From assembly GCA_021397835.1 (NCBI GenBank), contig JAJFZO010000191.1:5001-69000 (forward strand): DNA of 64,000 nt, in the 5' to 3' direction. How positions within the stretch are numbered: position 1 is the first letter of the stretch; each line of letters opens with the position of its first letter. The DNA comes from Moringa oleifera (Eukaryota > Streptophyta > Magnoliopsida > Brassicales > Moringaceae). Below the pieces are notes generated by a model. It ran no database searches. It was not told the DNA's origin and saw nothing but the letters and a program-made list of their open reading frames with translations. A program made the position numbers and the translations under genes. Shown here in pieces: positions 7,601-57,308 of this stretch.

Positions 7601-7731
7601 TCCAAAAATATTGACTTAATCAAATTTAAGTTTTATTTAATTTTAAATAACTGAAATAGAGCAAAAGTATTAATAAATTCAAAAAATATATCATTTTTAA
7701 TGATAGGCAAAGAAAAGTGATTTTTTGTGTA

Positions 7732-7768
<37 letters not shown>

Positions 7769-8660
7769 GTAATAGTAATAGTAATGTCAATTGAATGATA
7801 GCCAAAGAAAGGTGACTTTCTTGTGTAAATTTTAATTTGATATGATCATCTTTTGAAAAAATAAGTTACAAAAAATTAATTTTTCATTATCTCATAAAAT
7901 TGTAAGCAAAAGTTGAAAATAATGTCAATATAATATGATAAAGTTAATTGAATTAAATTATACAAATAACAATAACTCTTTCTTATTACATTGTATTTCT
8001 ATAAGGTAATAAAGTATTCAATTATCCAAAAATATTAAATTAATAAAATTTAAGTTTTCTTAATTTCAAATGACTGAAATAGAGCGTAATAAAGCCCATT
8101 GGCATTCAAAAAAGACTATTTAATGATAGCTAAAGAAAGGTGATCTCCTTGTGTAAATAAAAATAGTAATGATAACAAAGTAGATAGAAGGTAATCATTT
8201 TAAAAACTTGATGTGAATTATAGGTAATAATAAGCTTAATTTTTTAAATAAATAGTTAATAAAATTTAATTTTTTATTATCTCATAAAATTACAAATATA
8301 AATTAATAATAATGTCAATATAATATCATAATGTCAATTCAATTAAATTATATAAAAAATGATAGATCTTTGTTATTACATTGTACTTCTATAAGGTGAT
8401 AATAAGGTTAATTATTTGAAAAAATTGACTTAATGAAATCTAAGTTTTTTTTATATTTAAATAAATGATGTAGAGTAAAGATATTAATAAAACCCATGGG
8501 CATTCTAAAAAATATATTTAATAAAAACTAATGAAAAGTGATCTCCTTTTATAAATTAAAATAATACTGATAATAAAGTAAATATAAGATAATCATTTTC
8601 AAAATTTTATGTAAATAAAGTCATAATGAGGTTAGCATTTCAAAAAAATAGTTAATATAA

Positions 8661-8764
8661 TTTATCTCCAAAAAACACAAACAACAAGTAACAATAAGAT
8701 CAACATAATAAATTTATCTCCAAAAAACACAAACAACAAGTAACAATAAGATCAACATGATAAC
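8661..8764. repeat. 52-bp direct tandem duplication at the satellite edge
   Basis: A segment beginning tttatctccaaaaaacac is repeated exactly at a 52-bp offset (8661 and 8713). The identity is much higher than between satellite monomers, so this is a recent local duplication in the last, eroded part of the array. Confidence 0.85.
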
Positions 8765-8880
8765 AACTCTTTAGTGTTACATTATACTTCTAAAGTTAAT
8801 AATAGAGTTAATTATCTTAAAATATTGACGTAGTGAAATGAAATTTTTTTTTCAAATAACTAAAAGAGACAATTTTTTTT

Positions 8881-10884
8881 TAGAAAAATTGATCGTATTA
8901 TTGCCTTTGATTTATATTAAATTTTTTTAAAAATGATTATCCTGCTACTTATTATTATTATTATACAACTTTCTTTATCTACTGAGGTTAGTTCAAATGC
9001 AACTTTGATTGTGTCTTTGAAACTAGATTTGGAATAGGAGAAGATAAGGTTTTTGAAGGCTGAAACCCTTGTTCAAGAGGTTCAAAATCAAGAGATGATA
9101 ATAGAATAGTATAAGGTGTCAAAACACTTCCTAGATGAGTGTATTCAGTACTCTATAAGGGTATTGGGTAAGTCCCATAAGGACATAAAAGCATTTTAAC
9201 TTGAGAAATATCCCATTTGGACATTTCCCTCATTGAATGGTGCGAGGATGATGCTTTTTTAGGAGAAGTAGGTAGGACTATTAAGATTTTTATTTCCTTA
9301 AATTCTACTTCTCCTACAAAATTTACAGATTCCATTTAGTAAGAATCTCGTTAGGTAGATTTCCTATACTATAAGTTTCTCTTGATTATTTTAAGTTTTT
9401 TTGTTGTTCTAAGTTATATATACATATATATATATGCATATGTATGTATGTATATATGTTTTACAGTTTTAACTGTTACCCTGTCAGTTGTGGTGATGAG
9501 AACTTTGTTGATTTGAAGGATTGATTTTGGTTTTATTTTCTTAGTTGTTTGAATAATTAGAGCTAATCACATAGGTTTTGTAATCTAAACACTTTAGTTT
9601 TGGTTATTCTAGTTTGATCATATTTTGAAACAATGTATGTCATTCTTTTGGTTTGATGAATGATGAAGAGATAATCTATAAGATATTTTCTAAACTTTGA
9701 ATAAATCATTTGAAATATTACTATCTGATAAGTAGCTCATTATAGGGCACTTTACCTTCTGCCTTATTTATGTGCTTCTAACTTACTGCTCGTTTGGCAT
9801 TTGATTTCATGCCTTTTTATGCTTGGGAATGGCCTGGCGTTGAGCTGCAAAGCCTAGAAGCCTTAGAGATCCTTTCTTGGTCCTTTTTGTCCATATTAGA
9901 AATCTTAACGCTTTAGGTTTCACAAGTACTTAGTTATATAGATGGACCATAGGTTTTATAAGAACATGTTTGTCCTTGAAGGGCTGCAGGTCCCAAAGTA
10001 CTTGCCTATGAATTTTCCTATAATCTTTTCCTTAAGTTCTTGATAGATTTTGAATTTCAGTGGCTACGCCTAGGTACCTATTTAGCTTATAAAGATAACA
10101 AATGGGCTAAGAAGGCTGAGCGTTGGAATCATCTACGAAGTTTCTTTGGCTTTAAAAACAGATCTTATGAAGAGCCATGACTTTCTTAATTGAATTCCTA
10201 TAGATGGTGCTAATTAATGTTACCAAAATCTAGTTCCTTAGGCTCGATAATAAAGATGTCATGACTCTGCTTGGGCTAGCAAATCTTGGAAGGATCTTGA
10301 TGGATCTTTATTGATTCTTGGCGAATTTTTGGATGGTTTTTAGGCTAATCAAACTTGCAAATGGGATTGAAAAGACATCAAGTAACTTTAAAAGACCACT
10401 CTTATGCTTATACCAAGTGTTATGCTAAAGCTCGTAAACACTTTGGGCTCTCCATATTGGACTAGTTTTGTTGTCTTATATAAGTATAATTGAGCCAATC
10501 TTGATTTCAATATTATCCACATCACTCACGTATTTTAAAAAATTGGTGAGATGTATTTAACACCTATGTCACTTCTTGAAGTTAGTTTAGTATTTACCTC
10601 CATTGAAGGTACCTACATAATCTACCTAGATTTTTATTATGATATTTGTTATTTTGCATCATAAATATCTAATAATATCTTTAGTATATTATATTGTTGT
10701 TACTCAATTCAATGTATTTTTAATTAATTTTGACAAAAAAACAAATATTAAGTTATTTTTTATATTTTAAAATTGAAATTTCTTAGGTACAAAATTACAA
10801 AATATGTGAAGGTAGAGGGCAGTGACAGGTCAGTCCATCAGCATAGCCTCCTCAGCAAAGCATTAGAATCAGATAGTGGGACTG
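8881..10884. other. Gene-poor stretch with a possible coding relic
   Basis: No gene can be supported here. Around 9000-9200 (+) there is a short run of codon-like sequence interrupted by stops, which reads like an eroded coding fragment, perhaps transposon gag; I cannot assign it. A TA/TG microsatellite lies at 9415-9460. The end of the stretch should contain the promoter and 5' UTR of the following tRNA-binding gene, but I see no decisive TATA element. Confidence 0.5.
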
Positions 10885-18000: not shown

Positions 18001-20737
18001 CCAAGGCAAAGACCGGAAAATTCTGGACTCCTCAATTAAACCAAGATTCTACAAACATAACTCTATCATTAGTAGGGCCTAGATTAAGTGAGAGGTATAA
18101 CCAAGTAAACAAAATTAAACCAAGCAAACAAATTTAGGTACACCTCAAGGTAAATAATGAACAAGACATGAGAACCAACCATCAATATTGCTAATGCTGA
18201 TTTCTCCATGTTCAGCGTATAAAGATGTAAGGTCTTAATCCCATGACCTAAAATCTTCCGACACATTTCTGTTCCAAGGTGAATCCCGTAGGATTTGACA
18301 GCTTCTTCATTGTCCTTGATAGGCTCCAAGGCGGCAGTGATCTCAGCTGGTATCTACAATATGTTGTTAAATAGAAAGATCATAATGCATTGAATTTACT
18401 GCAATGCATCCCAAAAACATTTCAATATATAAGAGGCACTACGGTCAAACATTTTCCTGAACAACTTCTTTGAATAACAACCTCAAAAGACCACCCTGAA
18501 TCATCAAAAACTAGAAAACACGAAAGCTTGAACTTTGTTTGAGGACACAGAGGCATCCATTAATGAGACGACGAAAAGAAAAGGGCTCCTAGCTCCTGAA
18601 GAAAACTCGTACTTTAGGAAATCATAAGATATATTGGCAGAAAAGCATTACCCCGATCACAATTTGGTTTGCCACTTGGAACTATGGAACACAGAGTTGA
18701 AGTAAGGAATATACACCTGGTTCTTTATATTGCACAAGATGCACAGGGGCATCTCAACATTGTTTCCAACTAGCATGGGATAATTTATAGATACATTTAA
18801 TCTAAATTATGGGCTTGAATATTCTTTTCTTACTGATTTTTGAGAACACCCTTACAGTTCTCATTAATTAAGAGCCCTGACATCCAGATTCATATTTCTA
18901 TCCAAAGGTTAGAAAATTATTATTCAAAAAATCTTTAGCATAATACCAATAAATCAGAAACTCCTTTCAATGGCCTGAGGAGGACAGCAGGTAATAGTAA
19001 GCTTAATTACCGTGCCTCTAAGATGCCATACATCACAATTCAGACAGGATTATATAAGAGGTCAACGTGAATGATACTGCATACCTTTGTTTTGCAAAAA
19101 CCAGTCATGCGTAAGAAGCCCTTGTAGTTATTAATGGGCATAATCCCAGGAACAATGGGACAAGTAATGCCGATTTGACGACAATCATTCACAAATTTGA
19201 GGAAGATGTCAGTGTCATAGAACAGTTGAGTGACGATCAGATCAGCTCCAGCATCAACCTATGTGGTAGCATGCCATCAGCTCAAGTGGGTACACAACAA
19301 TGAAGCAAGAACAGCAAATTCAGCAATTAGAAATAAGCAGAAGAAGAAAAATTCTAAAAGCCCTGATCAAAAAAGAAACAAACCTAAAAGTCAGAGTTTA
19401 CAATACTCTCAAAATCCTCAGTGCAACTGAGTCTTAGAAGAAAAAAAAATAATAGTTAAAATTGCATGAAAATACCTGTCTGTTGCACATTAAGAAAAAA
19501 GACGGAAGGAGACAGGAACAAGAGGTACATAAAGGAGGATAAATTGGATGACACAGACCACATTAATCACTTAGCTAAAGGATTATATCAAATAACCTAC
19601 CATCCTAGGCCACACCCCAAATAGAAAAAGCAAGAGGAAGAAAAATATAAAAAGAGGGTTTCGTGGCAAAAGTTTAAAAAAAAAAAAAAAGACTGGCAAT
19701 ACCTTTTGCTTCAAATAAGCAAGATCATTCTGATAAGCTTCAGGCGAGGCCAGGCCATCACTCCCAATGACGTCCGGGTGTGCTTCTGAGCAGTGAGGTA
19801 AATTATTAAAAGAAAAAAAAAGTTAGAACAAGAAATGATAGGGAAAAAAAGAGTAATCACAAGTAATGGTAAGAAAAAAATGAGTAGAAAATGGAGAAAT
19901 CTATAAAGAGAAAGAATGTTAATCAGTAACAAAAAAAAAAAAAGAATTCCAAACAACAAAGAGAAAAGAGAAAGGAAATAAGAACCTGGATATCCAGCAA
20001 CAGTTATGCCAAAGTAGTCACCATAATTCCCTCTGATATGTTTCACCTGAAAACCACTCCCATTATCAGCACATCTGATACAGATCTAAGCATGAATATA
20101 GATCTAAGAATGGATACATGCATGACATTCAATCAATGCACATAGAGCTCAGTCAAGAATAATAGATCTAAACCTTAATCAGCACAAATTGTGCTGAGAA
20201 GGGAAATCAGACACCCATGTTTGATGCTTAATCAGCTAGATTGAATGTAAATGATGATAGAAATCGATACGTTATCTAATTCAGGAAGAAAGAAAACGGG
20301 AGAGCATATGCGTGCATAGAGTTAGGATTACGAACCAAGTCGAGGGCGCAAGCGAAGCCGCCTTGGACCTGGACGAACTTGTCCTGGCCGTGAGGAGGAT
20401 CCCCCCTGAGAGCGAGGACGTTCTGGATGCCATTGGATTTAATGGCATGGAGAGCGTGGTCGATCTTTTCCACAGGCATGTTGGTGCAGGTGAGGTGCAT
20501 CATGGTCTCCACGCATATCATGTTCTGCATCTTGTTGGCAATTTCCAAAGTTAGATCCGCAGTGGAACCACCGGCACCCCATGTTATGTCGCAGAATGCA
20601 GGGTTGTGGGCAACCATTCGGTCCATTCTCTCGAAGAGGTTGTCCACACCATCCTCAGTTTTGGGCGGAAAGAACTCGAACGAGAATACTACTTTCCCCT
20701 CCTCCGTCAAAGATCTTATCCTGTCTATGACCTTCAT
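15068..20737 (-). CDS. MTHFR: Methylenetetrahydrofolate reductase
   Basis: There are eleven exons on the minus strand: 20737-20336, 20046-19986, 19785-19703, 19258-19085, 18353-18180, 18048-17948, 17838-17727, 16344-16264, 16151-15974, 15623-15289 and 15151-15068. All splice in frame to 594 codons plus stop, the normal size of plant MTHFR. The enzyme reduces 5,10-methylene-THF to 5-methyl-THF for methionine synthesis in the cytosol, using FAD; plant forms are known to use NADH and to lack AdoMet inhibition. Residues 1-300 are the catalytic TIM barrel, with [10 protein letters not shown] near the N terminus, [25 protein letters not shown] and the second-exon GYPEAHPD stretch (split between exons 2 and 3). 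The C-terminal domain begins after the [13 protein letters not shown] region and ends [15 protein letters not shown]. The 11th exon encodes only 27 residues and is the part duplicated downstream. There are no stops or frameshifts, so the gene appears intact. ATG at 20737 gives the family-typical MKVIDRI start. Confidence 0.97.
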
Positions 20738-33413: not shown

Positions 33414-36400
33414 ATGAAGGGTTTCCGTGAAAAGGCTTCAAAATGCCCTTCAAAAAGTACAACTGATACCTTAAATAGATCTTCAGCATCTGTGGGTTCA
33501 GAGTCAGGATCTGGTGATATTAAGTTTTCCAAGGGTAACTTATGGTCAAGCTTCTTTGCATCTGCATTCTCAGTCTTTGAAACATATAGTGAGCCATCAG
33601 CTTGTGAAAAGAAGGCAGTTCATGCTAAACAAAATGGGTGGACAGCAGCTGTAAGGAGAGTTGTGGCTGGTGGTGCAATGAAGAGAATTCAAGAGCGTGT
33701 TTTAGGGCCAAGCAGGACTGGCATTTCTAGCACAACTAGTGACATATGGCTTCTCGGTGTGTGCTATAAAATTTCTCAGGATGAATCCTCGGCAGAAGCA
33801 CCTGCTGGTAATGGATTAGCCACATTTAAACAAGATTTTTCATCACGAATATTGATGACATATCGTAAAGGTTTGTATTATTGAAACTCATCCCTTGCAT
33901 ATAAATTTAAACTAGCACATTTGATTAGATTGGAAGAATGATTTTGATCTGTTCCTCTACAGGTTTTGACCCTATTGGAGATTCAAAGTTCACCAGTGAT
34001 GTGAACTGGGGTTGCATGCTTCGCAGCAGCCAGATGCTGATTGCTCAGGTATAAATTTCTCTCTTTGGAAAACATTTTTAGATAAGCAAACAATCTTTTG
34101 ATATGCAAATTGATCGATGGACAGATGATTTTTCTTTTCTTATTAATCTTTGTTTTAATTTAGTTAGTTAATAAGAATTGCCTTCTATTGTACAGGCATT
34201 GGTTGTCCATAGATTGGGGAGATCTTGGAGAAATCATGTTCACAAGGTAGGGTGAATGGTATTTACTGCAGTATTATGTTGATTTTCCATTCAACTGATT
34301 ACTTTCCCTCTTTAGATTCTGATTATGGTTGATCTTGATAGATTGACACAAATAAAGTTTCAGTTGCCAAACAAAAACTTTGTTCATGCTGCTACCATTC
34401 TAATTATGCAGCCTTTCGAACAAGAATACATTGAGATACTGCAACTTTTTGGTGATTCTGAGGCATCAGCTTTCTCCATCCACAATCTTGTTAAAGTTGG
34501 GAAGGCTTATGGCCTTGCTGCTGGGTCATGGGTCGGTCCATATGCCATGTGCCGCTCATGGGAGACACTTGCTCGCTGTAGAAGGGGCGGGACTGACCTT
34601 GAGTACCACTTGCTTCCCATGGCTGTTTATGTTGTTTCTGGCTGTGAAGATGGAGAGCGAGGTGGAGCTCCAGTTCTCTGCATTGAAGATGCCTCTAAAC
34701 ATTGTTTCGAGTTTTCAAAAGGTCAAGCTGACTGGACACCAATTCTTCTACTGGTTCCTCTGGTTCTTGGGCTTGAAAAAGTAAATCCCAGGTTGGTGAT
34801 ATTCTGAGTTTACTTGAATTGATGTGTGAGTATATAGCTCATTTTATTTTAATTTTAATTTTTGTTATATTTTATGGAATATGATCTTTGGTTAAGTCAA
34901 GCCTAAAAAATGAGGTACTTTATTCTTTTTCAAATTAGGGAAAGCTCTTGGTTTTTAACTTAAAAATGACACTTGCTTTTTAGTTTTTATGTAACTCAAT
35001 TATGTATAAGTAGTTGGAAATTATTTTAGTGGATTGTCTTGTATTACAATTAACATGAGCTTCATCAAACTGCCTACACAATTAGAGTGAGGAACTTTTA
35101 TTATCTGGCATTAATATGAGCTCCATCAGATTGTCTATACAATTAGAGAGAGGAAATCCATCAAGTGGAAATTGTTGGTTCTAGAAGGTCAAAGAACGTG
35201 ACCATGATACTGACCTATTAGAAAAGTTCTATGCCTAAAATGTTCATGATAATAAGACCATTGAAAGAATCAATCAAGATTCTTGAGTTATTTTATATTC
35301 CTCCATCAAAAGCTTGTTGAGAAAAGATTGTGTAAATGATTTCTCTTCAATTCCAAGATCTTAAGACTATTGTTTTGCTAGATATGAGTTTTTGAGAAAC
35401 TCTTTTGACTTCATTACACATTACCGCCCCTTTACTGTTCTTTGTAAAAGAGGACCAGAGATTTTGTAGCTTTGACTCCTGGGGATTACAAAGTAAGGAT
35501 GTGTGCTTGAGTTTTTTTCTCTTTTTATTTTCCTGCATCTTATGTTAGGAGATACGTTCATAATTTTGACCTTTAGAATCAATAATTTAAAAGACCTTGA
35601 AATGTATGCTTCATATGACCAAGAGACTTGATGTTAGAAGAATTTGTAGCCTAGTTGATTGGAGCTTTTAGACTTTGTTATTGAGAAGAGCAACTTGGGA
35701 CAATTTTTTTTTTCTTTCTTTACCTTCACTAATTTGTGTTTTCAAAAACAAGGAGACATAATTAATGTTTAGATTATTTCACTCACATGAGGTTGCCTCG
35801 ATGGTCTAGGGCAAATCTAAGATCAATCGTGATGCAGATAAGCATCCACCATGGAAGATTTATCAAAGGTGAAAATGTAGGAATCAATTAGTTACTAGTT
35901 CTTTTGTTTTTAAAATAAGGATTATTGAGATTATCTTTTAGTTTTGAGTGGTAGATAAGAGTTGACTTTGTAACTAACCTAGAATATAGCTAGGTTAGTT
36001 ATATTATTCAATTAGGATTAGGACTCTCTTTTCCTTATTCTCCCATCTCTTTCTTCTTCTCTACTTCTTCTTTGTTTCCCTTCTCCCCTAAACTCTTCTC
36101 TTCTTTTCCTTTTTCTCCTGTCCCGCATCAAGTGGCGTCTTTAGTGCCATCACACTCCCCTCCCCCCCCCCCTCCCCCCCAAAAAAAAGTTTGAATCTTG
36201 CATAATCGTTGCTTTGATTTTTATTTTTATTTATTATGTTCATCGGTAGAATTTTGAATTTAGTAGCTTAAATTTTTAATACTCGTAGCATCTGAAATTC
36301 TCTTTCTCATACCATGACTGTTAAAGAGCTTGAACAAGTTGTTCATAGAGTAGAGGATAGACAAACCTATAATGAGGAGGGAATGACTAAAACCAAAGGA

Positions 36401-39400
36401 AGGGCTAATGACCTTGAAACATGACTTAACCAACTCATTACCAACATCTAATAGTTTGTCAAATCGGTTAAGCTTCTTAGAGATGACTTCTATGCTACAT
36501 ACAAGGATCCTGGAAAGCTTCTAGTAGGTGAGTCAAGTAGTGAGCTAATGAATGTGCATAAACGTTTAGGAAATCTCGGTTGTGGACATGGGTTGTTGCC
36601 TACACCACCTAGACAGTTTTCTAGTACCAGTGATCCACAAATAGATGAACATCATTTTGAGGAAAGGTACTTTGAACCACCCCTCACATTAGACAATTCC
36701 ATAGAACCACAGGTAGATATCGTAATCAATAACGTTAGTACCTTTGGACCAACTTAGGTGTGATCAAGATGACGTAGTTGATATGTCTGGGAGAGTTAAT
36801 GTAAATGCCCCTGAGTTTGATGGTAGACTAGATCTTGAAGCTTTCATAGATTGGTTGTTTTGCATGGAAGATTATTTTAAGTGGTATCAAATGAACGATG
36901 CTCAACACATTCGTTTTACCAAGATGAAGTTAGTTGGATTTGCTAAGAGATACTAACATACAGTTCAACGTAATATTGAACGTCTAGGCCATCACCATAT
37001 TTCCCCATGGCATGAGATGAAGGAAAAGTTGAAAGAAAAATATTTGCCACCTTCATATAGGGATCAATTACTAGACTAACTACGTCATCTTGATCATACC
37101 TAAGTTGGTCCACCATGAAGAATGCTATCTATGTCATGCTAGAGGTCACATTGCCTCTCACTATCCACATCATACTCTAGCCCTACAAAATTTGGATGAG
37201 ACTATTGGTGAGGACAACAATGATCTTATTGCTATAACTCCATTAGAGGAACATGATTGCAAGAAACTTAAGACTTATAAGGATGACTCTTTCCTTAGCC
37301 AACTCTTAATAATGCACTGTATATTGTCTACCCCAATAGAATCTGATACTTGAAAGCGTACTAGTATCTTTAATACTTTTGTCACTCTTAAGAGGAAAGT
37401 TTGTAAGATAGTGATTGACGGAGGTAGTACCATGAATGTCATATCCAAAGCAGCCATTACTAGGTTTAACCTTACACCTGAGCCTCACTCCACCCCTTTA
37501 AGGTTGCCTGGGTGGATAAAACTTCCTTACTTATTAAGGAACGATACTTAGTGCCACTTAAGATTGGGTCATACTTTGAAAACCTTTATTGTGATGTCTT
37601 GCCTATGGATGTGGCACACATCTTACTGGGTCATCCTTGGTTATATGATCATGATATTAAACACTTCAGTTGCAATAACGCTCATATGTTTGCCCATGAT
37701 AGTAAGACCATTTTGCTCCAACCTGCCAAGCGCTTTTCTGGAAGCGGTTCTAAGGCTATCTCTTCTAGCACTAGTCCTAAAAAGAGGTTGCAACTGTTAC
37801 CCCATAAACAATTTGTGCGTGAAGGAATTAAGAGTGGTTTAGTTGTCGCCCTAGTCATTAAAGATAGTTTTCATCTTCCATTAGATACTAGCTTAGACCA
37901 AGATGGTGCTATTCTACCCATCATAGAAGCATTTAAGGACGTCATGCTTGATGAGCTCCCTAATGAGTTACCATCCTTGAGAGATATCCAGCATGCTATA
38001 GACCTAGTACTTGGTTCCCAGTTGCGCAATCTTCCACACTATAGGATGAACCCGACTGAGAGAACTAAGCTTAACAAACAAGTAAAGGATCTCCTAAAAG
38101 AGGGATTTGTTCGCCATAGCTTAAGCCCTTGTGTAGTTCCTGTTTTGTTGACCCCCAAGAAAGATGGATCTTGGAGGATGTGTATGGATAGTAGAGCCAT
38201 TAATAAAAACACTGTCAAATATAGGTTCTCTATCCCAAGGTTAGAAGATATGTTAGATGAATTGGGAGGAGCCTAAGTGTTCTCAAAGTTGGATCTCCGT
38301 AGTGGTTTTCATCAAATTAGGATTTGCCTCGATGATGAGTGGAAAATAGTTTTCAAAACTCAAGATGGATTTTATGAGTGGCTAGTCATGCCTGCCTTTT
38401 GGGATGTCTAATGCTCCTAGCACATTTATGAGAGTGATGACCCATGTTCTTCACTCTTTTATAGGTAAGTTCCTTATAGTTTATTTTGATGACATCTTGG
38501 TTTATTAATCCAAGGAACGACATCTAACACATTTTCGTCAAGTTCTAATGGCTCTTAGAGTAGCAAAATTGTACGCCAACCTTAAGAAGTACTCTTTTAT
38601 GCAATCTCAAGTACTTTTCTTAGGCTATGTTATTCACAAGATATTTTTGTTGATCTTGATAAAGTTAGAGCTATTAAAGATTGGCTTGTATCTAGGACTT
38701 TGACAGAAGTTCTTAGTTTTCATAGCTTAGCTTCTTTCTGTAGCCGGTTCATTAGAGCCTTTAGCACCATTATTGCCCCGATCATTGAATGTATGAAGAA
38801 AGGTGAGTTTCATTGGACCCCTGCCGCACAAAAAGCTCTCCTAGAAATCAAAGACAAGATGATGACCGCTCCACTTTTAAGGCATCTTGATCTATCCAAT
38901 GTTTTTAAGGTTACTTGTGATGCCTTGGGCGTAGGTATAGGTGGAGTTCTGAGTCAAGATGGTCACCCTATTGCATATTTAAGTGAAAAACTCAAATTAG
39001 GCCACGCAAAATTATTCCACTTATGATAAAGGATTTTATGCAATGGTTCAATCCCTTCGTCATTGGAGATATTACTTATTGCCAAAAGAGTTTTTGCTTT
39101 ACTCTGGTCATCAAGCCCTTTGTTATTTGAACTGTCAACGCTAACTAAGCGAAAGACATATCAAGTGGGTTGAATTCTTAAAAGAGTTCACTTTTGTCCT
39201 TAAACATCGAGCGGGGATAGATAATAAAACTGTCGATGCTCTCAGTCGATTATCCGTTATACTCCAATTTATGGAAAATCATGTTGTTGGTTTTGAATGC
39301 CTTAAAAATGAATTCTCCCATTGTCTTGATTTCGGTATTATTTAAGCCTTAGTTGAGAACATTTAGGGTTTTTTATCCAAGATGGTTATCTTTTTAGGGT

Positions 39401-42400
39401 TACTAGATTATGTATACCATGTACTTCTCTTAGGGATTTGCATGTTGGAGGGTTAGCCAGTCATTTTGGTAGAGATAAAACTGTCGCTCTAGTGGAAGAT
39501 AGGTTTTATTGGCCTTCTTTGAAGCGAGATGTAGATCAAATAGTATCTCAACGTCGCACCTCTCAATTAGGTAAAGCTAAAAGGCAGAACACTACATTAA
39601 ATACTCCTCTTCCTGTCCCACATGCTACTTGGCGTGACCTTAGCATGGATTTTGTCTTAGTATTACCCCGAACTGTTAGAGGCCATGACTCCATCCTTGT
39701 AGTAGTTGATTGTTTCTCCAAAGTGGCCAGTTTTATCCCATGCTTTAGGACTTAGAAGCTTCGCATGATGCTAAGCTATTTTTTAATGAAATTGTCACGC
39801 TACATGGCTTACGCTCTACTATAATGTTTGATCGGATGTTAAGTTCATTAGTTACTTTTGGAAGATGCTTTGGAAATTATTTGGAACCACTGTAAAATAC
39901 TCTTCTGCCTTTCACCCACAGACTAATGGTCAACAGAGGTGGTTAACCATAGTTTGGGAGACATCTTTAGGTGTTTAGTTGATGAGAAACCTAGTAGTTG
40001 GGATACCACTTTACCTACTATTGAGTTTGCCTATAGTAATTATGTCAATTGATCTACTGGCAAAAAACCTTTTTGAAATTGTTTATGGCTTGTCCCCAAA
40101 ACAACTCGTTGACCTTGTCAGGTTGCCTACTGACTACTGATATTCTGACTCAGCCATAGCTTTTGCAGACCATGTCCATAATTCACTTGTTGAGATTTGA
40201 CGAAAAATTGCTTTAAGTAACGAAAAATTATAAATTTTTTGTCGATGCACATCGTAGGCAAAAAGAATTCAAAATGGGTGATTATATAATGGTCCGTATC
40301 TCTCCTGAGTGTTTTCCTAAAAGCATTATAAAAAAAGCTTTATGCTCGATCCATCGGACCTTTCCTCATTATTTGTCGACTAGGATCCAATGCATATAAA
40401 CTTGATTTGCCTCCAAACTTATATATTAGTCCTATATTCAATGTGTCAGATTTGCTTATTTACTGAGGCACATTTGAGCCTCCAGTTTTCCCTTCTTCCA
40501 CGTTTGCAAGATCATCATCTCATGCTACACTATGTGTCCCAGCAACTACTGCTACACCAACGGACATGATTGTTAATGTTTTGGACGATGAATATGTGTC
40601 TTCCTTTGACGGTGTTATTCATCATTTTCTTGTACACTAGAAGGATCGACCATCTACTGATGATACTTGGATCACAGAGCAGGAATTTCGTCGACTTCAT
40701 CCTGCTCTTTTAGATTCCTATTTACAACATAACTTGCCGGAGCCGAGTTTTCTTCAACTCGGCGAATATGTGTCTTCCTTTGACGGTGTTATTCATCATT
40801 TTCTTGTACACTAGAAGGATCGACCATCTACTGATGATACTTGGATCACAGAGCAGGAATTTCGTCGACTTCATCCTGCTCTTTTAGATTCCTATTTACA
40901 ACATAACTTGCCGGAGCCGAGTTTTCTTCAACTCGGCGAGTATGGTGCAGACAAGCATCAACCATGGAAGACTTTGAAGAAGGCGAAAATATAGTAATTG
41001 TTTAGTTACTAGTTTTTTTATTTAAATTAGGATTATTGTGATTATCTTTTAGTTTTTATTAGTAAATAAGAGTTGACTTTGTAACTTACCTATAATATAA
41101 CTAGGTTAGTTATATTATTCAATTAGGATGAGGACTCTTTTCATTATTCTATTAGGACACATAGTTTATCTAGGATTTATAATTTGATTAGGAATATGCT
41201 GCATTGGCCTATAAATTGGCTACATGAGCTTGAAGTTGTTCAGACTTGAAGGAGAAATAAAGTGTTAGCTTTTAAGCTTTCTCTCTCTCCCTCACATTTC
41301 TCCCCCATTCTCTATTTTGCTATCTCTTTTCCCTATTCTTCCTTTGCCTTTTTCTTCTTCTCATCTTCTTTTTCTCTGTTTCCCTTCTCCCTTTAACTCT
41401 TCCCTTCTTCTCCCCTTTTCTCCTGTCCTTCATCAAATCGTGAACTAGGACGTCTTAGGTTTAGATTCTGCCCTGGAGATTAGGCTTATGTTTAGATTGG
41501 AGTTGCTCTTGTAGGCCGATGCATCATTCCCTAGGTTTACCTTGCAAAAGGTGGGTCCATTGGTTACCCTGTCTTACGTGTTGTTGATTACCCCAAAAAA
41601 AAAAAGAAACCTTTAGATTATGTCGGTGCCCATATAATGATATTTGGTTTGGCAGTAGTATAATTAGAAATCTTTGCATGCAAGTGATGCATAATTTTGA
41701 ACTAGTTGTCCTAAGAAATATTTAATTCTTAGAAAGCCATTTAGTTGTTCAGAATTAAATTGATGACATAGATATGAAATTGAACTTCTATCAATCAATT
41801 CAAAATTGAATGGTGTTATAGTGTCATGTTTGGTTGCAATAACATTATTGATTCCACTGGAATTTCCAAGTTTAGTTGAATGGAGTAATATCATGGGTTC
41901 TTTTTTTTTTTTTTTTGTTGGGGGGGGGGGGGGGGGGGGGGGGGAAGGGATCAGAAATAATGTCACTTTTATGTTAGCTATGAGGCACCAAGGGAGTGCC
42001 CCTCAATGTACAAAATGTTAGCTAGATCCTATCTAGGAGTGAGGACATCTATGAACTCTAAAAGGTCCTCCTCATTTACAACAAATTCTCCCATAATTTG
42101 AGAATATGAATCTATCTATTCCTTAACACATTAAGGGACGCTTTCATCCCTTCAAAAGCCCTCCTATTTCTTTCTTCCCACAAAAGCCAAAAAATAAGAA
42201 GCAAAATCAATGTAGTAGCTTTCTTCTTTGCCCTAGTTGTCCTTATCCCTCTCCAAGCACTCAATTCTGCTCGCACCAATCCCCATGTCACTAAAACTTG
42301 CCCCAACAAAAGCAACACACTCTCCCAAATCTCTCTAGACTATTTACACCAAAGCATTACATGATTCATAGTTTTTACTTGTTCTTTGCGTGAAAAGCAC

Positions 42401-47976: not shown

Positions 47977-47985
47977 TTTATGTTT
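47977..47985. repeat. Target-site duplication, left copy (9 bp)
   Basis: TTTATGTTT directly precedes the left terminus. The identical 9-mer follows the right terminus at 57300-57308. Length 9 is characteristic of Mutator-superfamily insertion. The AT-rich composition makes a chance match less improbable than for a random 9-mer. Confidence 0.7.
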
Positions 47986-48325
47986 GAGGAAAATTCTATT
48001 TTAATCACCCGTATAAGGATATTTACGTAAATAACTAACATTACTAATGTATTTGTTTTTAGCACTTTTTAGACACTTTGAGACAAAATTACCCTTCACA
48101 GCAGATGTACAATTACTTACTTATCCAACTACAGAATATAAAAAGTCAAACATCTCAAACGTCTCTATTTCCCTCTCTCCTAATTCTGGCGCTAAGCTTT
48201 ACCACTTAGCTCGTTCAGCTTCAGCTCTCTTCATTCGGTGTCTGTTGATTTCTTTGCTTTCTTTGTAAACCAACCTTTCCTCAATACTATCCGCAAGCTA
48301 CTGAATCACTAAAAAAACAATAGAG

Positions 48326-49017
48326 GTATGATTTCAAGCAACTATTCTACTCAAATTTCTGTGGGTTTTTTGCTTATTGAATATCCACGGATGAAATCCT
48401 TCCCTCATATTTGATTCAACGATTTCTTAATTTTTTTGAGTTTACTCTATGGGTTTGAAAGCTTCTCCAATAGTTTTTGAATCATTTTCTTTTGATTTTG
48501 TATTGGTTTTGGAATCTGCGATGTTTGGGTATATCGTGGTGTATTATTTTTCATTTTTCTTTTAATACATTGAAACCCAAAAATTTCTCTGGGTATATGT
48601 ATATAGGTATCACATGCTTAAGTCTTCATTTACTGGTTTGTTGGCTCCAATTTCTTGGCTTAGGTGCATCTATATGCAACGGTTCATCGCATTCGTGACC
48701 TCATAATAATAATCGTATCTATTTAACGAAATCGTAACCTATTTTGTTAATGGAACTGTTTTTTATGCAATCGTACTGTGATTGCATAAATCGTACCTTG
48801 TTTGTTGAAATCGTATCGTATTTGTTTTCAATCGTAACTTGTTTGCTTCAATCGTACCTTTTTTGTTTTCAATCGTGACTTGTTTTCTGAAATCATACCT
48901 TATATGTTTGAAATCGTAACTTATTTGATTAAATCGTACCTTGTTTAAAACAATCGTATCATAATTACTGAATGAAAAATCGATTTTTTGACCCTTTTTT
49001 TTTTGGATCAAATGCAG
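48326..49017 (+). other. Leader intron of the Ulp1-like gene
   Basis: A donor (tagag/gtatga) at 48325/48326 and an acceptor (aaatgcag) at 49017 define a 692-bp intron in the 5' UTR. The coding start follows the acceptor directly. The CT-rich leader at about 48160-48325 is the likely first exon. The intron is unusually long for this gene because it holds the first TCGTA(A/C)C array. Confidence 0.6.
48690..48962 (+). repeat. TCGTAMC array 1 (20-bp minisatellite, leader intron of the Ulp1-like gene)
   Basis: The core cgta (or a one-base variant) occurs at 48694, 48714, 48733, 48772, 48792, 48812, 48833, 48853, 48874, 48894, 48914, 48934 and 48954. This is a register of 20-21 bp with one degenerate position near 48753. 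Consensus: AATCGTAMCTTGTTTG plus 4 variable bases. It reads on the plus strand, the sense of the surrounding gene. Confidence 0.9.
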
Positions 49018-49963
49018 ATGGCAAGTAGCCCTGTTTCTCAGAAGCCATATGTGACCCCCAAAGAGTCTTGGAAGACTGGAAAGATACTGAAGCATTGTGA
49101 TAATGATGTCATCCCCACTCTAAGGACAATTTTGGATGACTCTGAGAAGGAGAAATTCAGAGGGACCTGCTTAGGGCATTTCCTACATTTGCACGCCGAT
49201 TTTAACTTCTCAGGGATTATTGTCCATAATCTGCTACTTCGGGAGATTCAGCAGAACCGCGAGGACGAAATGTGGTTCAGACTTGGGCAGAATGAAGTTC
49301 ATTTCAGCAAAGTGGAATTTTGCCTAATCACTGGATTGAAGTTTGGCGAGCTACCGGATACAGAGAATATTGAAGCTACTCCATCTGGTATCCTAGCCAA
49401 ATACTTCGGGGGGAGGGATAAGGTTAGTGGTAGTAGCATCAAGACGAGGTTACTACAAGGAGAGTTTGAGAACGAAGATGATAAACTAAAGCTGGGGTTG
49501 TTGTATTTGCTGAACGGGTTCATCAAAGGCCACGACGAGCGGCAGCAGGTCCCTACATGGCAGTTTCATTTAGTAGACAATTTAGAGGAGTTCAATGGCT
49601 TTCCATGGGGCACCTAGGTCTACTGCAACTCCATATTGCATTTCAAGAAGGCAGTTGCAAATCGAATCAGGGATGCTGATGGGGTGAGCTATAATGCTTA
49701 CGGCTTTGTATGGGCATTACACGTAAGGATTTTGTTTGAAATTTTTTATTTTATTTTTTTAAAGTTTCATTGAATTTTATATTAATCAATTATAACTTCA
49801 TTTTCATTTTTTTTCACAGGTTTTTGCCTTTGAAGTGATTCCTGCTACCAACATGCATGGCATGAGGTTGTCAGGATCCGACTTGCCATTGCCAAGAATT
49901 TACCGATGGAGGTTCCATCGCAGGCCCCATAATGGAGATTGCAAGAAAATCTTCACAAACAGT

Positions 49964-50327
49964 GTAAGTAATTTCGTACCTTCTTTCTCTACTTCGTGCC
50001 TTACTTATAAATTTCGTACCTTCTTTCTCTACTTCGTGCCTTCATTCTAAATTTCGTACCTTCTTTCTCTACTTCGTTCCTTCCTTCTAAATTTCGTACC
50101 TTCTTTATCTACTTCGTGCCTTCCTTCTAAATTTCGTACCTTTTTTCTATACTTCGTGCCTTCATTCTAAATTTCGTACCTTCTTTCCCTACTTTGTGCC
50201 TTCATTCAGCCATTTCATGCCTTACTTTTTCAATTTCGTGCCCTCTTTCTCTAATTTTTATGTTGTGCCTTAACGTTTCATTTTCGTATATTCATTCTTA
50301 ATTTCGTAACTTTATTTGTATTTTCAG
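49964..50327 (+). repeat. TCGTAMC array 2 (40-bp units = two 20-bp halves, intron after DUF1985 exon 2)
   Basis: Units beginning atttcgtacc start at 49971, 50011, 50051, 50091, 50131 and 50171, exactly 40 bp apart. Each contains a second half-unit acttcgtgcc 20 bp later, and degraded units follow to about 50320. The array fills the whole 364-bp intron from donor to acceptor. The core reads in the sense of the gene. Confidence 0.93.
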
Positions 50328-51574
50328 ATGGAGGCTAAGCTTAATTTGAAGCCAACTACTGCCGAGCGTCAAGCCCCATACTATGTTGGGGTTGAAGACA
50401 GTGTTGTGCCTGGCCAACCATTGAATCGAGATGACGAAATGGTAGAGTCTCCCATTCGGATCAGGGCTACAAATTCGTCTTCTTCTTTGCGCAAAACTTT
50501 GAAGGTAAGGGAGAGGATCCCTACTGAAGAAGAACGAATTGTCGACGAGTCAGAGCCGGACCTGAGGGAAAGGGATGTTGAGCGGGAGGCACCTGGCGCT
50601 GAAAGGGTTGAACGGGATCCAGATGTTTACCGTCGTCTCGTTGCTATGGAGTCGAAATTGGAACTTCTCGAGGCGAAGGTAAATCGTATGGACTCAGACA
50701 ATGAAAGACGCCATCAGGAGCAAATGGCGATCCTGAAATCCATCCAATTATCTCTACAAGGATATGGATTTGGTGACCGAGACCCGTCTCCACCTATGTC
50801 AAATCCAATTCCCAATGAGGTAGTTCTCTAATCTATTTCAACTGTATTTTTTGTTTCGTGTATTACTAATGATATTTTTCTTTCTTTAGAACATTATTAA
50901 ATGTATGTATTAAACATGACTTTCTAATTCAGTACATTGTTTATTTTTTTTAGGGTGTTATGGCAGACTCAGCCCAAGAGGGCTTGGCTCCTGCAGGGCA
51001 ATGCCACAAAACAGAAGCCACTGCAGGGCCAATGGAAGAAGTTGTCACTGCATTCCCATGCAGTGACAACTTCGGGGCTCCTACTGTGGTAGATAAAGAA
51101 TTGCCATCTGCAGAGTCACCCAAAAGGATGGCAGCGAGGGACTTGGCCCTTGTCCCAGTTGAGGCCACTGACAATGTGATGCCGGTTGTCAGGACTCGTA
51201 AACGGTCAAGACAACTGTGCAGTCCATATGTTGAGCTTCATACTGGGCATAAGAAAGCCAAGTCCACTCACATGGTCAGTGCGAAGTTGCAAATATCAGA
51301 TAAGATCATCGCTGCATTCAACAACTTCATGAAGGGCCAGTCATAGTAAGTATTGCATAGCATATGTGTTGCATACTAATTTTTTGAATTTAATTTTTTT
51401 GAATTCTTTTCTCACAGTTTCTTTTTATTTCCTTCAGTCGCAACGTAGGCATTGGCCATTCAGTGAGCGTGGACTGGTTCAAAGCCCTAATTGACAATGA
51501 TGAGTGGATCGATGACTCTGTAAGTTTTCAATTTTTTGCACTATATTATTATTCCTTGCTTAAATGTCGTGCTT

Positions 51575-51775
51575 TTATTTCGTAACATGATTCACAGTAT
51601 CGTAACATGTTTTATAGTATCGTAACATGTTTCATATTATCATAACTAAAATTATAATTCGTAATTTTCTTTCGTAACATGTTTCATATTATCGTAACAT
51701 GTTTCATAGTATCGTAACATGTTTCATATTATCGTAACTAAATTTAGAATTCGTACCTTGATTTCGTATATTCAT
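51575..51775 (+). repeat. TCGTAMC array 3 (20-bp minisatellite, intron of the Ulp1-like gene)
   Basis: cgtaacatgtttcatagtat-type units lie at 51581, 51601, 51621, (51641 variant), 51673, 51693, 51713, 51733 and 51752. Spacing is 20 bp apart from one 32-bp step. The array lies in the 293-bp intron 51520-51812, again sense to the gene. Confidence 0.92.
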
Positions 51776-52889
51776 AGTACTGATAATATCACTTTTCTAA
51801 TGTCTCCACCAGCACATTGATGCATATTTGCACATATTGCGGAGAAGGCAGAAGGAGCTACCTGAGCAATATGCATAAGATATCTGCATCTGTGATCCTT
51901 GGCTATATGTAAGTCCCTTGATCATTAAGACTATTTATCTGATTTTTTATTTAATTTATTTGTTGACTTTGTTTTATTGTTCAAATTTACAGACAGCATT
52001 TTATTACATTTACAACGAATATCAAAAGGATCCAGATGCTGATTGTCCTCCGGCACACTCGAACTTTGAAGCGCATAAATGGGAAGAAGATTTCCTAGAC
52101 CGTGTGCGAGGCAAATTTTCAAGGGATTGTCCTGCTTGGAACACTGTAAATAAGGTTAGTTATCTTCATTAGTAATGATTTATATACTTATACTTTTTTT
52201 CCATATTATGAGTACTCAATGATATTTAAACATTATTTAATGTAGCTGATGGTTCCTTACCACGTTGGGGGATTTCACTGGCTTCTAGTCGTCATTGATC
52301 TGAGGAAATTCTCGTTGCGTGTCTATGACTCATTCCGTCAAGAGATACCAACTGAAGCGAGGATTCGGCAGCAAAATCCATTCAGATGGATGCTAACTAG
52401 CTATATGGCGAGTGACGGATATTTCATTCGAAAATCAGATGCCAAAATGCCGGATCTTCCACTTTCATGCACTTTGGAGCCAAAGAACAAGATCCCAACG
52501 AATAAGGTAAGTCTTTTTTCCAGTATGTGTTATTATAAAATTTTTTTCTGGTGAATGTCTTTCCTTATTCTTAATTATTTTTTTTTTGCAGTGGCAATTG
52601 TGGTCCTCACATGCTGTATATTATAGAACATTTACTACTTAGGAAACATTTAAAATACACTGACATGGATATGTCAGTTATTAGAAATCACATGGCAATG
52701 TATATATTTGCCAACTCCACTGTAGATGATAGTCATTGATTCAATTTTTTTATTCTTATTCAATGTATTTATTTTGTATATACATTTGAGAATTGTATAT
52801 AACATTTTTACAATTGTATATGACATTATTTTGTATATATAATCCAAAATTTTACAATTGAAACAGTTTTTTTTTGTCAATAGATGTAT

Positions 52890-53725
52890 GATGTACTAAT
52901 AATGTTATGAATTTTGGTAACGTCTCCATATGATTCTAACTCATCAATCAAGTTATGAACGTTACTCATAATTTACTAATCAATGTACGAATTCATAATG
53001 AAGTTACGAATTTTACTAACGAATACATAATCAAGTTACAAACATTACTCATAATTTACTAATCAAGGTAAGAATTCATAATGAAGTTACGAATTTTAAT
53101 ATCGATTTCATATACAAGTATCTCAGATACATAATCAAGTTACGAACATTACTCATAAATTACTAATCAAGGTACGAATTCCTAATAAAGTTACGAACTC
53201 ACAATAAAGTTACGAACTCATAATAAAGTTACGAATTTTACTAACGAATATATAATCAAGTTACGAACGTTACTCATAATTTACTAATCAAGTTACGAAT
53301 TCCTAATATCTCAGATACATAATCAAGTTACGAACATTACTCATAAATTACTAATCAAGTACGAATTCCTAATAAAGTTACGAACTCACAATAAAGTTAC
53401 GAACTCATAATAAAGTTACGAATTTTACTAACGAATACATAATCAAGTTACGAACGTTACTCATAATTTACTAATCAAGTTACGAATTTCTAATAAAGTT
53501 ACGAACTCATAATAAAGTTACGAACTCATAATAAAGTTACGAATTTTACTAACGAATACATAATCAAGTTACGAACGTTACTCATAATTTACTAATCAAG
53601 TTACGAATTCCTAATGAAGTTACGAATTTTAATATCGATTTCATATACAAGTATCTTAGATACATAATCAAGTTACGAACATTACTCACAATTTACTAAT
53701 CAAGTTACGAATTCAATGGACAAAA
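52890..53725 (-). repeat. TCGTAMC array 4 (about 19-20-bp units and higher-order copies between the two convergent genes)
   Basis: The plus strand shows many gttacgaa blocks, so the core TTCGTAAC reads on the minus strand, the sense of the transposase gene. Simple 19-bp steps occur (53173, 53192, 53211, 53230). A longer unit beginning aatcaagttacgaac is repeated near 53033, 53131, 53253, 53323, 53443, 53562 and 53667. The array occupies nearly all of the 1.1 kb between the Ulp1-like stop (52739) and the transposase stop (53846). Confidence 0.92.
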
Positions 53726-53845
53726 ATAAGGTACACTCATCTGCATGTAACAATTGAAACTATATAAAAACCTAACCTAAAATCCGAATCTGTGATGACG
53801 TAGAAGTTAAAAATCATCAATATCATAAAAAATTACTATGATTTA

Positions 53846-56800
53846 TCATAAGTCAATGGTGCAATTATCTTGTGAATTTGATTTGCGAGGCATTTGACAA
53901 GTTTGTGCGTTATGACCAACTCCACCACAGTTACGGCATTTACGACGAAATTGATCAGGGACATTTGACGACTGACAGTGGCTTACTCCATCAAAATATT
54001 GTGAATTCGAGCATGTTAATCGATTGTGCCCATATTGAAAGCATTTAGAGCATTTTTTTTTACCCGCCATCTCCCCACTAGAGGGTATTCTCTGCTTCTT
54101 TGGACGCCCTACTGAATTACCATTATTCGGTGGTAATATCACAACTCTTTTGATTTCCTCGGGTACATTCCAATCAGACTTGTCACCAACTGGATATACC
54201 GGCTCAGCATATGCAGCTACTAGTTAATCCTGTTTGTAGTAGTTAGAGTAAAGAGTTATGAAATCAATATTACGTTCCCTGCAAAAAGTACACAACATAT
54301 GAAGTTAATGAAAAAAATAACATGAATAATGAAATTAACAAAACCATCAGTATCACCTGGAAGCTGCCAGTGCATGTGCACATGGCAAAAGATCAGCTTG
54401 AAACTCTCTACAAGTACAAGTACGGTCGATAAGGTTCACAACTGCCTCTTTACCCTTGTGCCTAACTAAAAATACGTTCCAATCAACATTGGAAGTCGTC
54501 ATTTGTAATGAAACTTTTTGTCTCTCATTCATCAATGAGTGAACCCACTCTGTGAGTTGTGACCTCCAAGCCTTAGCTTTTTTCAATCGATCATAGAACC
54601 AACGTTGCATCATATCTCGAATGAATTCCAATAAAGCCATAACGGGCAACTCACGAGCAAATCGAAGACATGAATTCAAACTTTCGGCAATGTTAGTGGT
54701 CATGAGTTGATAACGTCTCCGGGGGCAATACACACGTGACCATTTTTTTGGATCTTCCTTCATGATATATTCAAAAGCTTTAGGGTGATTAGCCTGTAAC
54801 TCAGTCATTAATTTATTAAATTCAGATTCTCGATATGCCCTAGCCGCACTATAAAATATCTTAGATACATCTTCTCTCTTAAACTTATTCTTTATGTTTT
54901 GAGCCATATGCCAGGAACATAAACAATGACAAGAATTAGGAAAGACCTTTGCGGTGGCCTTTGCAATACTGGCATGACGATCTGATATAATAACCAAGTC
55001 TTCAACCGAACCAATTGCTTCTTTTAGCTGCCCTAAGAACTATTCCCATGCTTCATAGTTCTCCGAGTCACCATAACCGAATGCTATTGGATATATCTGT
55101 TCATTCCCATCTTTACATGCCGCTAAAAACATTACACCGTGGAACCTCCCTTTTAGGTGAGCAGCATCAATAGCAATGATCGGTCTAATTACCGAATGAA
55201 ATCCCCTCAATGATTGTCCAAGAGCCACAAATAAATACTTAAATCGATTAGTTCCATCCTCGATGCATATGTGAGCCCTAGTTCTCGGATTAACAGTTTG
55301 CAACATGTGGCAGTATGAAGGCAGTTGTTGATATGACTCAATTGGATCACCATAAGTAAGAGACAATGCATACTCTTTAGCCTTCCAAGCTTTACTATAT
55401 AAAATATGTATGCCATATAGTTCTTTCATATCTCCCATGATGTCTTTCGGCTTAATGATTCTAGCATTGGTAGACAACCTCTGAGCTACAATTTCTCCAA
55501 TAACAGTAGAACTTGCTTGTCGATGTCGTCGATGCAACTCTTCAACCGTGCAAGTATGCGTCAAATCACACCTTCTAATTTGGAAGAATTGCCCTTGCGC
55601 AACTCTCACAGCACGAACCTTCCATGCGTAATTTCTTTCTCTACAAGCAATCTCAAATACTGATTTGTTAGACCTAGTGACTCTAAATTCAAAGTTCTCA
55701 GTTAATGCATGCATACCCAAAAATCGCTTCAACTCTTTCTTGTTTGGGAAAAACTGACCTCTACCAAGGGTATGAATCGGAGTCACTGATTCCATAGTAG
55801 GAGTCGGAGCAAGACTATATAATTCAGCACCCAACACATTATATCGTCTAACAACACCATTATTTGAATTATTATGTACTTCTGGGCATGCAACTGGGAT
55901 ATAAGGTGGGACAGTACGTAAGTTCTCATTCACCGCTTCATTATCGAGTTCTACCTCTACAGTGAGTTCACATTGATCTTCACTGGTAGGCTGAGTAGGT
56001 TGAGTTCCCATGATTGGGTATTCACACTCAATATCATAGTCCACCTGTTCATCCAAATTTATCTCATCGGTGTGCTGAGTGTCAACAGGAGTATCACTAT
56101 GGATGAATGGTTCGGGGCCATAAACGTCCAATTGCACAGTAGGATTACTTCCCGTACAAGAGTTAAAAGGATTAACTCCTCCTGAAATTTCACCTTCACA
56201 TAAACCATGCCTATTTCCAACAAAATTTCTCTGCACCAAATCAACAATTATACGTGGAACTATACTGTCATCGTACAACATAAACTCAACATCTTCATCA
56301 TTCCTTAACTTAATTTTGACAGTAATTTTTTCAGATCTTACTATGGTATGCAGTACAATATCAATATTAGAGAAATCAGCCTCCACGCAACATTTAACCA
56401 AATCCAACAACTGTACATATTTCAAATCCCTCCGAATAACATACCCCTTAGTTTTGATGGCTCTGCCAATATACTCAAAACTTCCTCTAGACTCGGACCA
56501 CTCACCATTCCAAGTTATAATGATCCGGATTCTGTAATGAAAAAAAAAACATTTTAAATAACAAAAGACGAATATATGATTTCGCATGTTACGATTTCAT
56601 CAATTAAGTTACGATTTCATCAAATAAGTCACGATTGAAAAACATGTTACGAAAACTTGTTACGATTTTATGAATGTTACGAATCTCATAATGATGTTAT
56701 CAAATAAGTCACGATTGAAAAACTTGTTACGATAAACAAAGTAAGATACGATTTTCAAACATGTATGAAACTAAGATTATGACACGATTCTCAACCAATG

Positions 56801-56911
56801 TTATGAAAATACAAAGGAAGAGATCACGATATAAATAGTTACAACTGAAATCTTCACGGTTTTAAGCTACATTACAGTTTAAACGGTATACCTGTCACCT
56901 TCTTTACCCAT
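53846..56911 (-). pseudogene. MURA-type transposase gene of the Mutator-like element
   Basis: Three coding exons on minus: 56911-56892 (MGKEGD), 56531-54357 and 54278-53846. The product would be about 875 aa. In order: an N-terminal domain (FMLYDDSIVPRIIVDLVQ region), a MuDR-type DNA-binding region (GRGQFFPNKKELKRFLGMHA ... RNYAWKVRAVR), and the MULE transposase core. The core has DDE residues in IIAIDAAHLKGRF, VIISDRHASI and TNIAESLNS. Then come a SWIM zinc finger (CTCREFQADLLPCAH) and two CCHC knuckles (CSKCFQYGHNRLTC and CRNCGGVGHNAQTC). Two nonsense codons break it: TAG at 55042-55040, where relatives have Trp (EAWE-W-FL), and TAA at 54226-54224. Apart from these the frame is open, which suggests recent inactivation. 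The transposase would cut and rejoin the ends of the element in the nucleus. Confidence 0.93.
56580..56850 (-). repeat. TCGTAMC array 5 (about 20-bp units, intron 1 of the transposase gene)
   Basis: tacg/cacg cores on the plus strand lie at 56590, 56610, 56630, 56648, 56661, 56678, 56710, 56728 and 56747, followed by weaker ones. Read on minus the units are AATCGTAACTTAATTGATGA-like, the same consensus as array 1. The array fills most of the 360-bp intron 56891-56532 and is sense to the transposase. Confidence 0.88.
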
Positions 56912-57299
56912 TCGAGCACGGTCTGATTATGAAGAAGAATATATTGTCAAAAACACGAGCTTCTTTCTCTGCGCAAGATAACTAGCCTTCGATTTCTTCT
57001 TGGGATCTTGATTTGATAGATCTTGGATACAAAGATTGGAAGAAATAAAACTCAAAGGAAGGGCGAAGAAAGACAGAGCTCGAAGAGAGAGAGTGGCCGA
57101 AAGAGGGAAAGATTTTTTCGCCAAAAAAGAAATGTGTTCAGACAAATCTCATAAATTTTCGAGTTCATTTAATTTTTAAGGGTATCATTATCTTTTGTAA
57201 GGGTATTTTTGACTTTCCAAGACATTTAAGTGCTAAAAAAACCAAACTTAATAAAACATGTTTTTTTTCCAAATGACTGCCAATTTTGGCAATTTCGTC

Positions 57300-57308
57300 T
57301 TTATGTTT
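57300..57308. repeat. Target-site duplication, right copy (9 bp)
   Basis: TTTATGTTT after the right end of the Mutator-like element, identical to 47977-47985. It lies 238 bp upstream of the MLO start codon, so the insertion is next to or inside the MLO promoter. Confidence 0.7.

Follow-up and report, generated by a model that had tools for sequence, protein, structure and literature searches.

In Arabidopsis, VANDAL transposons carry arrays of short motifs, all in the same orientation, in introns and other noncoding DNA, and binding of these arrays by the DUF1985 protein VANC leads to desilencing of the element (PMC5735166). VANC6 acts in a similar way on a motif of its own (PMC5735166), and, according to meeting reports, unpublished structural work on VANC suggests that these proteins co-evolve with their targets (PMC8756742, PMC12859917). 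In a study of the evolution of Mutator-like elements (MULEs), VANDAL was grouped with other elements of Brassicaceae (PMC6446971). Here, we describe a comparable arrangement in Moringa oleifera, in a stretch of 64,000 nucleotides of contig JAJFZO010000191.1 (positions 5,001 to 69,000, hereafter the window), which contains a MULE of 9,314 bp with a DUF1985-ULP1 gene on the plus strand, a MURA transposase gene on the minus strand, and five arrays of one short core. We consider it probable, at roughly 60%, that the DUF1985 protein which the element encodes recognizes the arrays, as part of an anti-silencing system of the VANC/VANDAL kind. This would apparently place a VANC-like system in a rosid outside Brassicaceae; the literature covered, which left out most subscription papers and bioRxiv preprints, yielded no array system resembling VANC from beyond Arabidopsis or Brassicaceae.

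The exact core TCGTAMC occurs 50 times in the window, against a chance mean of 3.58 and a maximum of 8 among 100 shuffles, and all 50 occurrences lie within the five arrays of the MULE (Table 1). An original prediction, made from the sequence alone, had proposed that five arrays share this core in one MULE and form nowhere else in the window, and both points are borne out. The 21 plus-strand cores fall at 48732-51757 and the 29 minus-strand cores at 53003-56732, and each array is sense to its flanking gene, on the plus strand at 48.7-51.8 kb and on the minus strand at 53.0-56.8 kb, as had been claimed for all five. The siting also agrees with the earlier description, since all five are in noncoding DNA, arrays 1, 2, 3, and 5 within introns predicted from their GT..AG borders and array 4 in the interval that separates the convergent 3' ends. 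A repeat step of about 20 bp was found in arrays 1, 2, 3, and 5, to which Tandem Repeats Finder assigned a period of 20 (48769-48946, 49971-50253, 51580-51738, and 56588-56636), but it does not extend to array 4, where the program reported nested periods of 19, 32, 51, 67, 83, 121, 187, and others at 52946-53712 and exact cores stand 19, 32, 35, 50, 53, or 83 bp apart. Similarly, TCGTA(A/C)C is the core of the arrays but is too narrow a definition, as array 2 alternates TCGTACC and TCGTGCC; the core is best given as TCGT[A/G][A/C/T]C (TCGTRHC).

The encoded DUF1985 protein is homologous to the Arabidopsis array binder. The DUF1985 exon, compared as a single sequence with the Protein Data Bank (PDB), matched VANC21 (9lnj, E=1.4e-4) and nothing else at E<=10, and the DUF1985 profile matched the same entry at E=9e-8 over residues 52-245 of 383, again as the sole match at E<=1; the PDB entries named VANC21 are 9lnj and 9lnk. 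Downstream of the first Peptidase_C48 (ULP1) match, a second, weak one lies at 52593-52736 (E=0.0036, under the curated cut-off), and the two long exons of 50328-51519 gave no Pfam match at E<=0.1. A protein record of Tanacetum coccineum (P0171) combines DUF1985, MULE, and SWIM domains, which suggests from domain content that elements of the DUF1985 and MURA type are present in Asteraceae too.

The original prediction knew of no described element with arrays of this kind, but VANDAL21 and VANDAL6, with their VANC proteins, have them (PMC5735166). VANDAL21 (Hiun) resembles the Moringa element in being a MULE-type element with a sequence-homologous DUF1985 protein, VANC21, and in having family-specific arrays of a short motif in noncoding DNA, which keep one orientation and vary in size from copy to copy (PMC5735166). 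Its motif is YAGTATTAY, whereas that of the Moringa family, TCGTRHC, has a CpG in every core; VANC is marked with DUF287 in Arabidopsis, whereas the Moringa protein has ULP1; and VANDAL21 has three genes (PMC5735166), with additional arrays ahead of VANA21 and in the noncoding DNA at the termini, whereas we saw two genes in the Moringa element, whose arrays are confined to introns and the interval between the 3' ends. VANDAL6 likewise combines a related DUF1985 protein, VANC6, with a motif of its own (AGTTGTCC / AGTTGTAC) in tandem arrays (PMC5735166). That motif is another one, and as counted by eye AATCGTAC and AGTTGTAC differ at two places, a resemblance that chance could explain. KI-MULE (Kaonashi) and other ULP1 MULEs are similar, by description, in lacking terminal inverted repeats (TIRs), in high copy number, and in a ULP protease domain that reads in the reverse direction, which we take to be relative to the transposase; they differ in that no motif arrays are described in the accessible text of that source, from which the word 'tandem' is absent (PMC2528002).

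The arrays recur across the family in the genome from which the window comes, which comprises 279.5 Mb in 669 contigs. Among 417 candidates for DUF1985, at least 150 places were scored, each of them exceeding the cut-off, and 44 family places were examined: the 20 best-scoring as long copies, including that of the window, 20 short pieces picked for diversity from the remainder of the 150, and 4 places found by their arrays alone. Sense cores were present at array positions in 44 of 44. In the 20 long copies, TCGTAMC occurs 494 times on the plus strand at the left, 433 times on the minus strand at the right, once on the plus strand at the right, and never on the minus strand at the left; the single exception lies in flanking DNA, and all 927 cores inside the copies obey the strand rule, as do 1,226 of 1,232 matches to the looser TCGTRHC. 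Only 5 of the 928 TCGTAMC are solitary, the flanking one included, and the elements themselves are free of TCGTAMC in their outermost 500 bp at the left and 350 bp at the right. Arrays at the same introns and on the same strand were what the original prediction had asked other copies to show, and this was found, as was the expected confinement of arrays to the family, although neither expectation was blind to the genome-wide list. Array 3 is missing in three long copies of one clade, array 4 in L013, and array 5 in L015, and the number of cores per array differs among copies. Of 40 DUF1985 places, L040 is the only one without an exact TCGTAMC. None of the 44 places revealed an element with an entirely different motif, and the expectation of other motifs wherever TCGTAMC is missing failed, because L040 bears the variant core TCGTGCC.

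Successive TCGT[A/G][A/C/T]C cores up to 90 bp apart in the 20 long copies are spaced by 19-21 bp in 703 of 1,106 cases, by 32 bp in 141, and by 13 bp in 56. Since all these distances occur, spacing that keeps cores on one face of the DNA is not a general rule, and helical phasing at two turns per unit, as earlier suggested, was rejected.

To assess specificity, we scanned the genome for three cores in a row at steps of about 20 bp, and obtained 585 overlapping matches for TCGTAMC, 162 for TCGTACC, and 69 for TCGTGCC; the backward-read pattern, used as a control, gave 0 matches in each of the three scans. For TCGTAMC and TCGTACC, 100 matches each were listed, and all 183 distinct places among them belong to 45 family elements (171 by DUF1985 hits, 8 by retrieved pieces whose places and strands were assigned by hand, and 4 by MURA hits from which the position of DUF1985 was deduced) and have the strand that the rule predicts. 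For TCGTGCC, whose list is full, 68 of 69 places were assigned to 51 elements, all strand-concordant (56 via DUF1985 and 12 via seven MURA anchors, five of which later received a DUF1985 hit), and only C627:4106879 has no family assignment. Thus, 251 of the 252 triplet places examined are assigned and stand as expected. The possibility that the arrays are a general genomic satellite was rejected, as all but one of the listed places lie in the family, and the picture of a functional-looking, element-specific system, with arrays recurring in the same places and on the same strand, has held.

The units around the core differ within one element and among clades, with TCGT[A/G][A/C/T]C as their common part. 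The unit of array 1 is AATCGTACCTTGTTTGTTTA in the window, AATCGTACCTAATTTCGGTA in L039, TTTTAAAAATCGTACCAAG in L033, and TAATTTCGTATCAACATTTT in L029. The array unit follows the DUF1985 clade in its spacers but hardly in its core, and the core is kept even where, in one clade, the array introns cannot be aligned with those of the window. A distant clade (L029 with L051, G000:C556:247758-258257) keeps the layout, with thin arrays 4 and 5, and shows identities of 62% in DUF1985, 71% in the N-terminal part of MURA, and 85% in its C-terminal part; as DUF1985 and the MURA N-terminal part are about equally diverged in another clade, DUF1985 has evolved faster only in comparison with the MURA C-terminal part. 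In the third array of a distant-clade element, 12 of 13 cores read TCGTG, compared with 0 of 199 TCGTR cores in the window's clade (17 long copies). The distant clade is large, as 60 of 150 listed DUF1985 hits are at least 76% identical to L029. Together with the window's clade, it forms a natural pair for tests of DUF1985 specificity, and the family's at least 150 scored DUF1985 copies and its core, as a second motif, are material on how DUF1985 reads DNA.

We propose that the DUF1985 protein, expressed from the plus gene where a copy is intact, would bind the clustered TCGT[A/G][A/C/T]C cores in the noncoding DNA of family copies, with the density of cores providing specificity. By analogy with VANC, binding would strip silencing marks through demethylation, both element genes would be expressed, and the element could move, while tandem duplication would enlarge or shrink the arrays, turning over the spacers and leaving the core. 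The system is homologous to VANC/VANDAL in the key domain and, as far as its anatomy shows, may work likewise. Because both genes of the window copy carry in-frame stops (at 49615 in the DUF1985 exon and one near 55040 in MURA), full proteins are not expected from this copy. If the proposal is true, the anti-silencing strategy is more widespread than the VANDAL elements of Arabidopsis and DUF287 is dispensable.

The gene content would also allow for a more elaborate scheme, in which ULP1 beside an array-binding DUF1985 domain tethers deSUMOylation to the chromatin of the element, methylation of the CpG in the core blocks binding and creates a self-maintaining switch with two states, and the sense rule reflects coupling of binding to transcription. 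We regard this combination as speculative and unlikely. Neither a ULP1 domain in the gene of the presumed binder nor a CpG core is mentioned for Arabidopsis VANC in the accessible part of the source (PMC5735166). The family raises the questions of a SUMO protease as part of the effector and of sites that face one way.

Several observations weigh against recognition by the DUF1985 protein. Orientation in the sense of the transcript is not required by the VANC model; it may come from a function at the RNA level, from coupling to transcription, or from descent, the last because array 1 resembles array 5, and array 3 array 4, in inverted orientation. Additionally, 'sense' and 'inward' are indistinguishable because the genes converge. 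The rule is not absolute, as the 22 short pieces contain 1 antisense TCGTAMC beside 194 sense ones and the array zones of the clade comparison contain 11 antisense TCGTNNC. A scan of six separate exon pieces of the plus gene, which left aside the last part of exon 1 and three short exons, gave no DUF287 match at E<=0.1, and an ULP1 domain is present where Arabidopsis VANC is marked with DUF287. The AlphaFold2 model of the DUF1985 exon was of low confidence (pLDDT 53); no fold matched it at E<=0.001, and VANC21 was not among the fold matches listed. The core is little changed across DUF1985 proteins down to 58% identity, without clear co-variation; MURA too differs in the clade with the TCGTG shift, and another clade is 79-82% identical in DUF1985 and 78-80% in the MURA N-terminal part. 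Within clades, core diversity was below spacer diversity in five of six alignments and above it in one, and the difference was clear in one alignment alone (8 of 302 shifts as low).

An explanation at the RNA level, which we consider unlikely, would have a splicing factor or another RNA-binding factor recognize the UCGURHC repeats of the pre-mRNA, both in its introns and in its 3' region, or would have the repeats keep these long introns U-rich. It accounts directly for the strand rule (927 of 927 TCGTAMC in the long copies and 251 assigned of 252 triplet places), it fits the T-rich sense strands of the five window arrays (42-49% T), and it agrees with the lack of cores near both element ends, where promoters are expected. 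However, array 4 lies between convergent 3' ends and is perhaps untranscribed, and five introns of the element without arrays are equally or more T-rich (48-57%) with zero TCGTAMC. The orientation could also descend from a few seeded arrays, given the inverted similarity above, and the Arabidopsis relative of the encoded protein binds DNA (PMC5735166). Avoidance of splice sites as the reason for the orientation was dropped on inspection by eye, as it did not hold alike for the AAC and ACC core types.

Quite unlikely, in our assessment, is that the arrays are neutral minisatellites without function, which arose in introns by slippage during replication and passed from one family member to another by gene conversion. 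The weak constraint on the core within clades is in line with this, as are the expansion and contraction of arrays and the common ancestry of some of them. Nevertheless, slippage leaves the single strand without a clear reason, and one core occupies up to five places with unlike spacers and recurs in the clade whose introns do not align. The ratio of observed to expected CpG is 1.9-3.0 in the window arrays and 0.65 in the element outside them; this also speaks against neutrality, although recent turnover could explain it. The ratio is 0.60 in the plus exons, 0.47 in other noncoding DNA of the element (8 CpGs), and 0.38 at 10-46 kb of the window, and 79 of 90 array CpGs lie inside TCGT. The high value in arrays may reflect constraint, low methylation, or recent turnover.

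The original prediction had looked to MURA as the natural binder, through its Mut-type DNA-binding domain. DBD_Tnp_Mut and SWIM are kept, the MURA 3' exon has a weak zinc-knuckle match below the cut-off, and the arrays are family-wide, but the sequences near the two ends, on which a transposase has to act, are devoid of TCGTAMC in the 20 long copies, and the other gene encodes a homologue of the known array binder VANC21. We therefore consider binding by MURA very unlikely. Use by the host, with tandem repeats feeding small-RNA-directed methylation of the family, would conserve neither one core nor one strand and is highly improbable as the explanation of the arrays, although it is compatible with recognition by the DUF1985 protein.

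Table 1. Features of the Moringa oleifera MULE, in window coordinates.
Feature	Position	Strand	Details
Whole MULE	47986..57299	.	9,314 bp; termini GAGGAAAATT...CAATTTCGTC
Left target-site duplication copy	47977..47985	.	9 bp, TTTATGTTT
Right target-site duplication copy	57300..57308	.	9 bp, TTTATGTTT
Predicted 5'-UTR intron with array 1, upstream of ATG	48326..49017	+	GT..AG
Array 1	48690..48962	+	13 TCGT including 6 TCGTAMC; step of about 20 bp
Coding exon 1, DUF1985-ULP1 gene	49018..49722	+	DUF1985 PF09331 E=2.7e-25; in-frame stop 49615
Intron with array 2	49964..50327	+	40-bp higher-order unit; TCGTACC/TCGTGCC alternate
Further predicted exons and introns	50328..51519	+	by eye
Intron with array 3	51520..51812	+	8 TCGTAMC; units of 20 bp
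3' exons	51813..52739	+	Peptidase_C48 (ULP1) 52246-52506, E=3.4e-6; frame interrupted in window copy
Array 4	52890..53735	-	23 TCGTAMC on minus; between convergent 3' ends
MURA gene	53846..56530	-	DBD_Tnp_Mut E=4.9e-10; MULE E=3e-9 in one part; SWIM E=1.3e-7
Predicted MURA 5' intron with array 5	56532..56891	-	array 5 at 56580-56850, 6 TCGTAMC on minus

The limits of the element were set where homology to the 19 other long copies ends (L015 is incomplete at the right), and the gene models were drawn by eye from GT..AG borders alone. The 9-bp target duplication is exact for the window copy and was seen by eye for several other copies. Comparison by eye found no long TIR at the true ends, and only weak inverted similarity joins 48056-48106 and 57190-57239. 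With absent or degenerate TIRs and a 9-bp target duplication, the element shares two traits with VANDAL-type MULEs, and ULP1 on the strand opposite MURA in a non-TIR element is a trait shared with ULP1 MULEs. Maize MuDR shares the 9-bp target duplication and the convergent genes, but has long TIRs, and we know of no such arrays in it. MuDR also resembles the Moringa element in combining a transposase gene, mudrA, with a second gene, but the latter is mudrB, whose function is unknown (PMC6446971). About 250 bp past the right end of the element, a candidate MLO-like gene, recognized by eye, starts at 57545.

Elsewhere in the window, pieces of host genes were identified at 20276-20737 (methylenetetrahydrofolate reductase, E=4.2e-52) and 34325-34807 (Peptidase_C54, E=3.5e-22), and an open reading frame at 37512-38276 resembles a piece of a retrotransposon polyprotein by eye, with no Pfam family at E<=0.001. 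In a search with a host gene, Malvales and Sapindales were among the best named hits of the 120 listed of 530, none of them a close match. Positions 1-9000 are very AT-rich (GC of 0.19-0.26, compared with about 0.3-0.4 elsewhere) and include tandem units of 357-395 bp at 6316-7555. Additionally, a 174-bp unit is present in two copies with 99% identity at 40590-40944, and a run of 25 G bases lies at 41920-41944.

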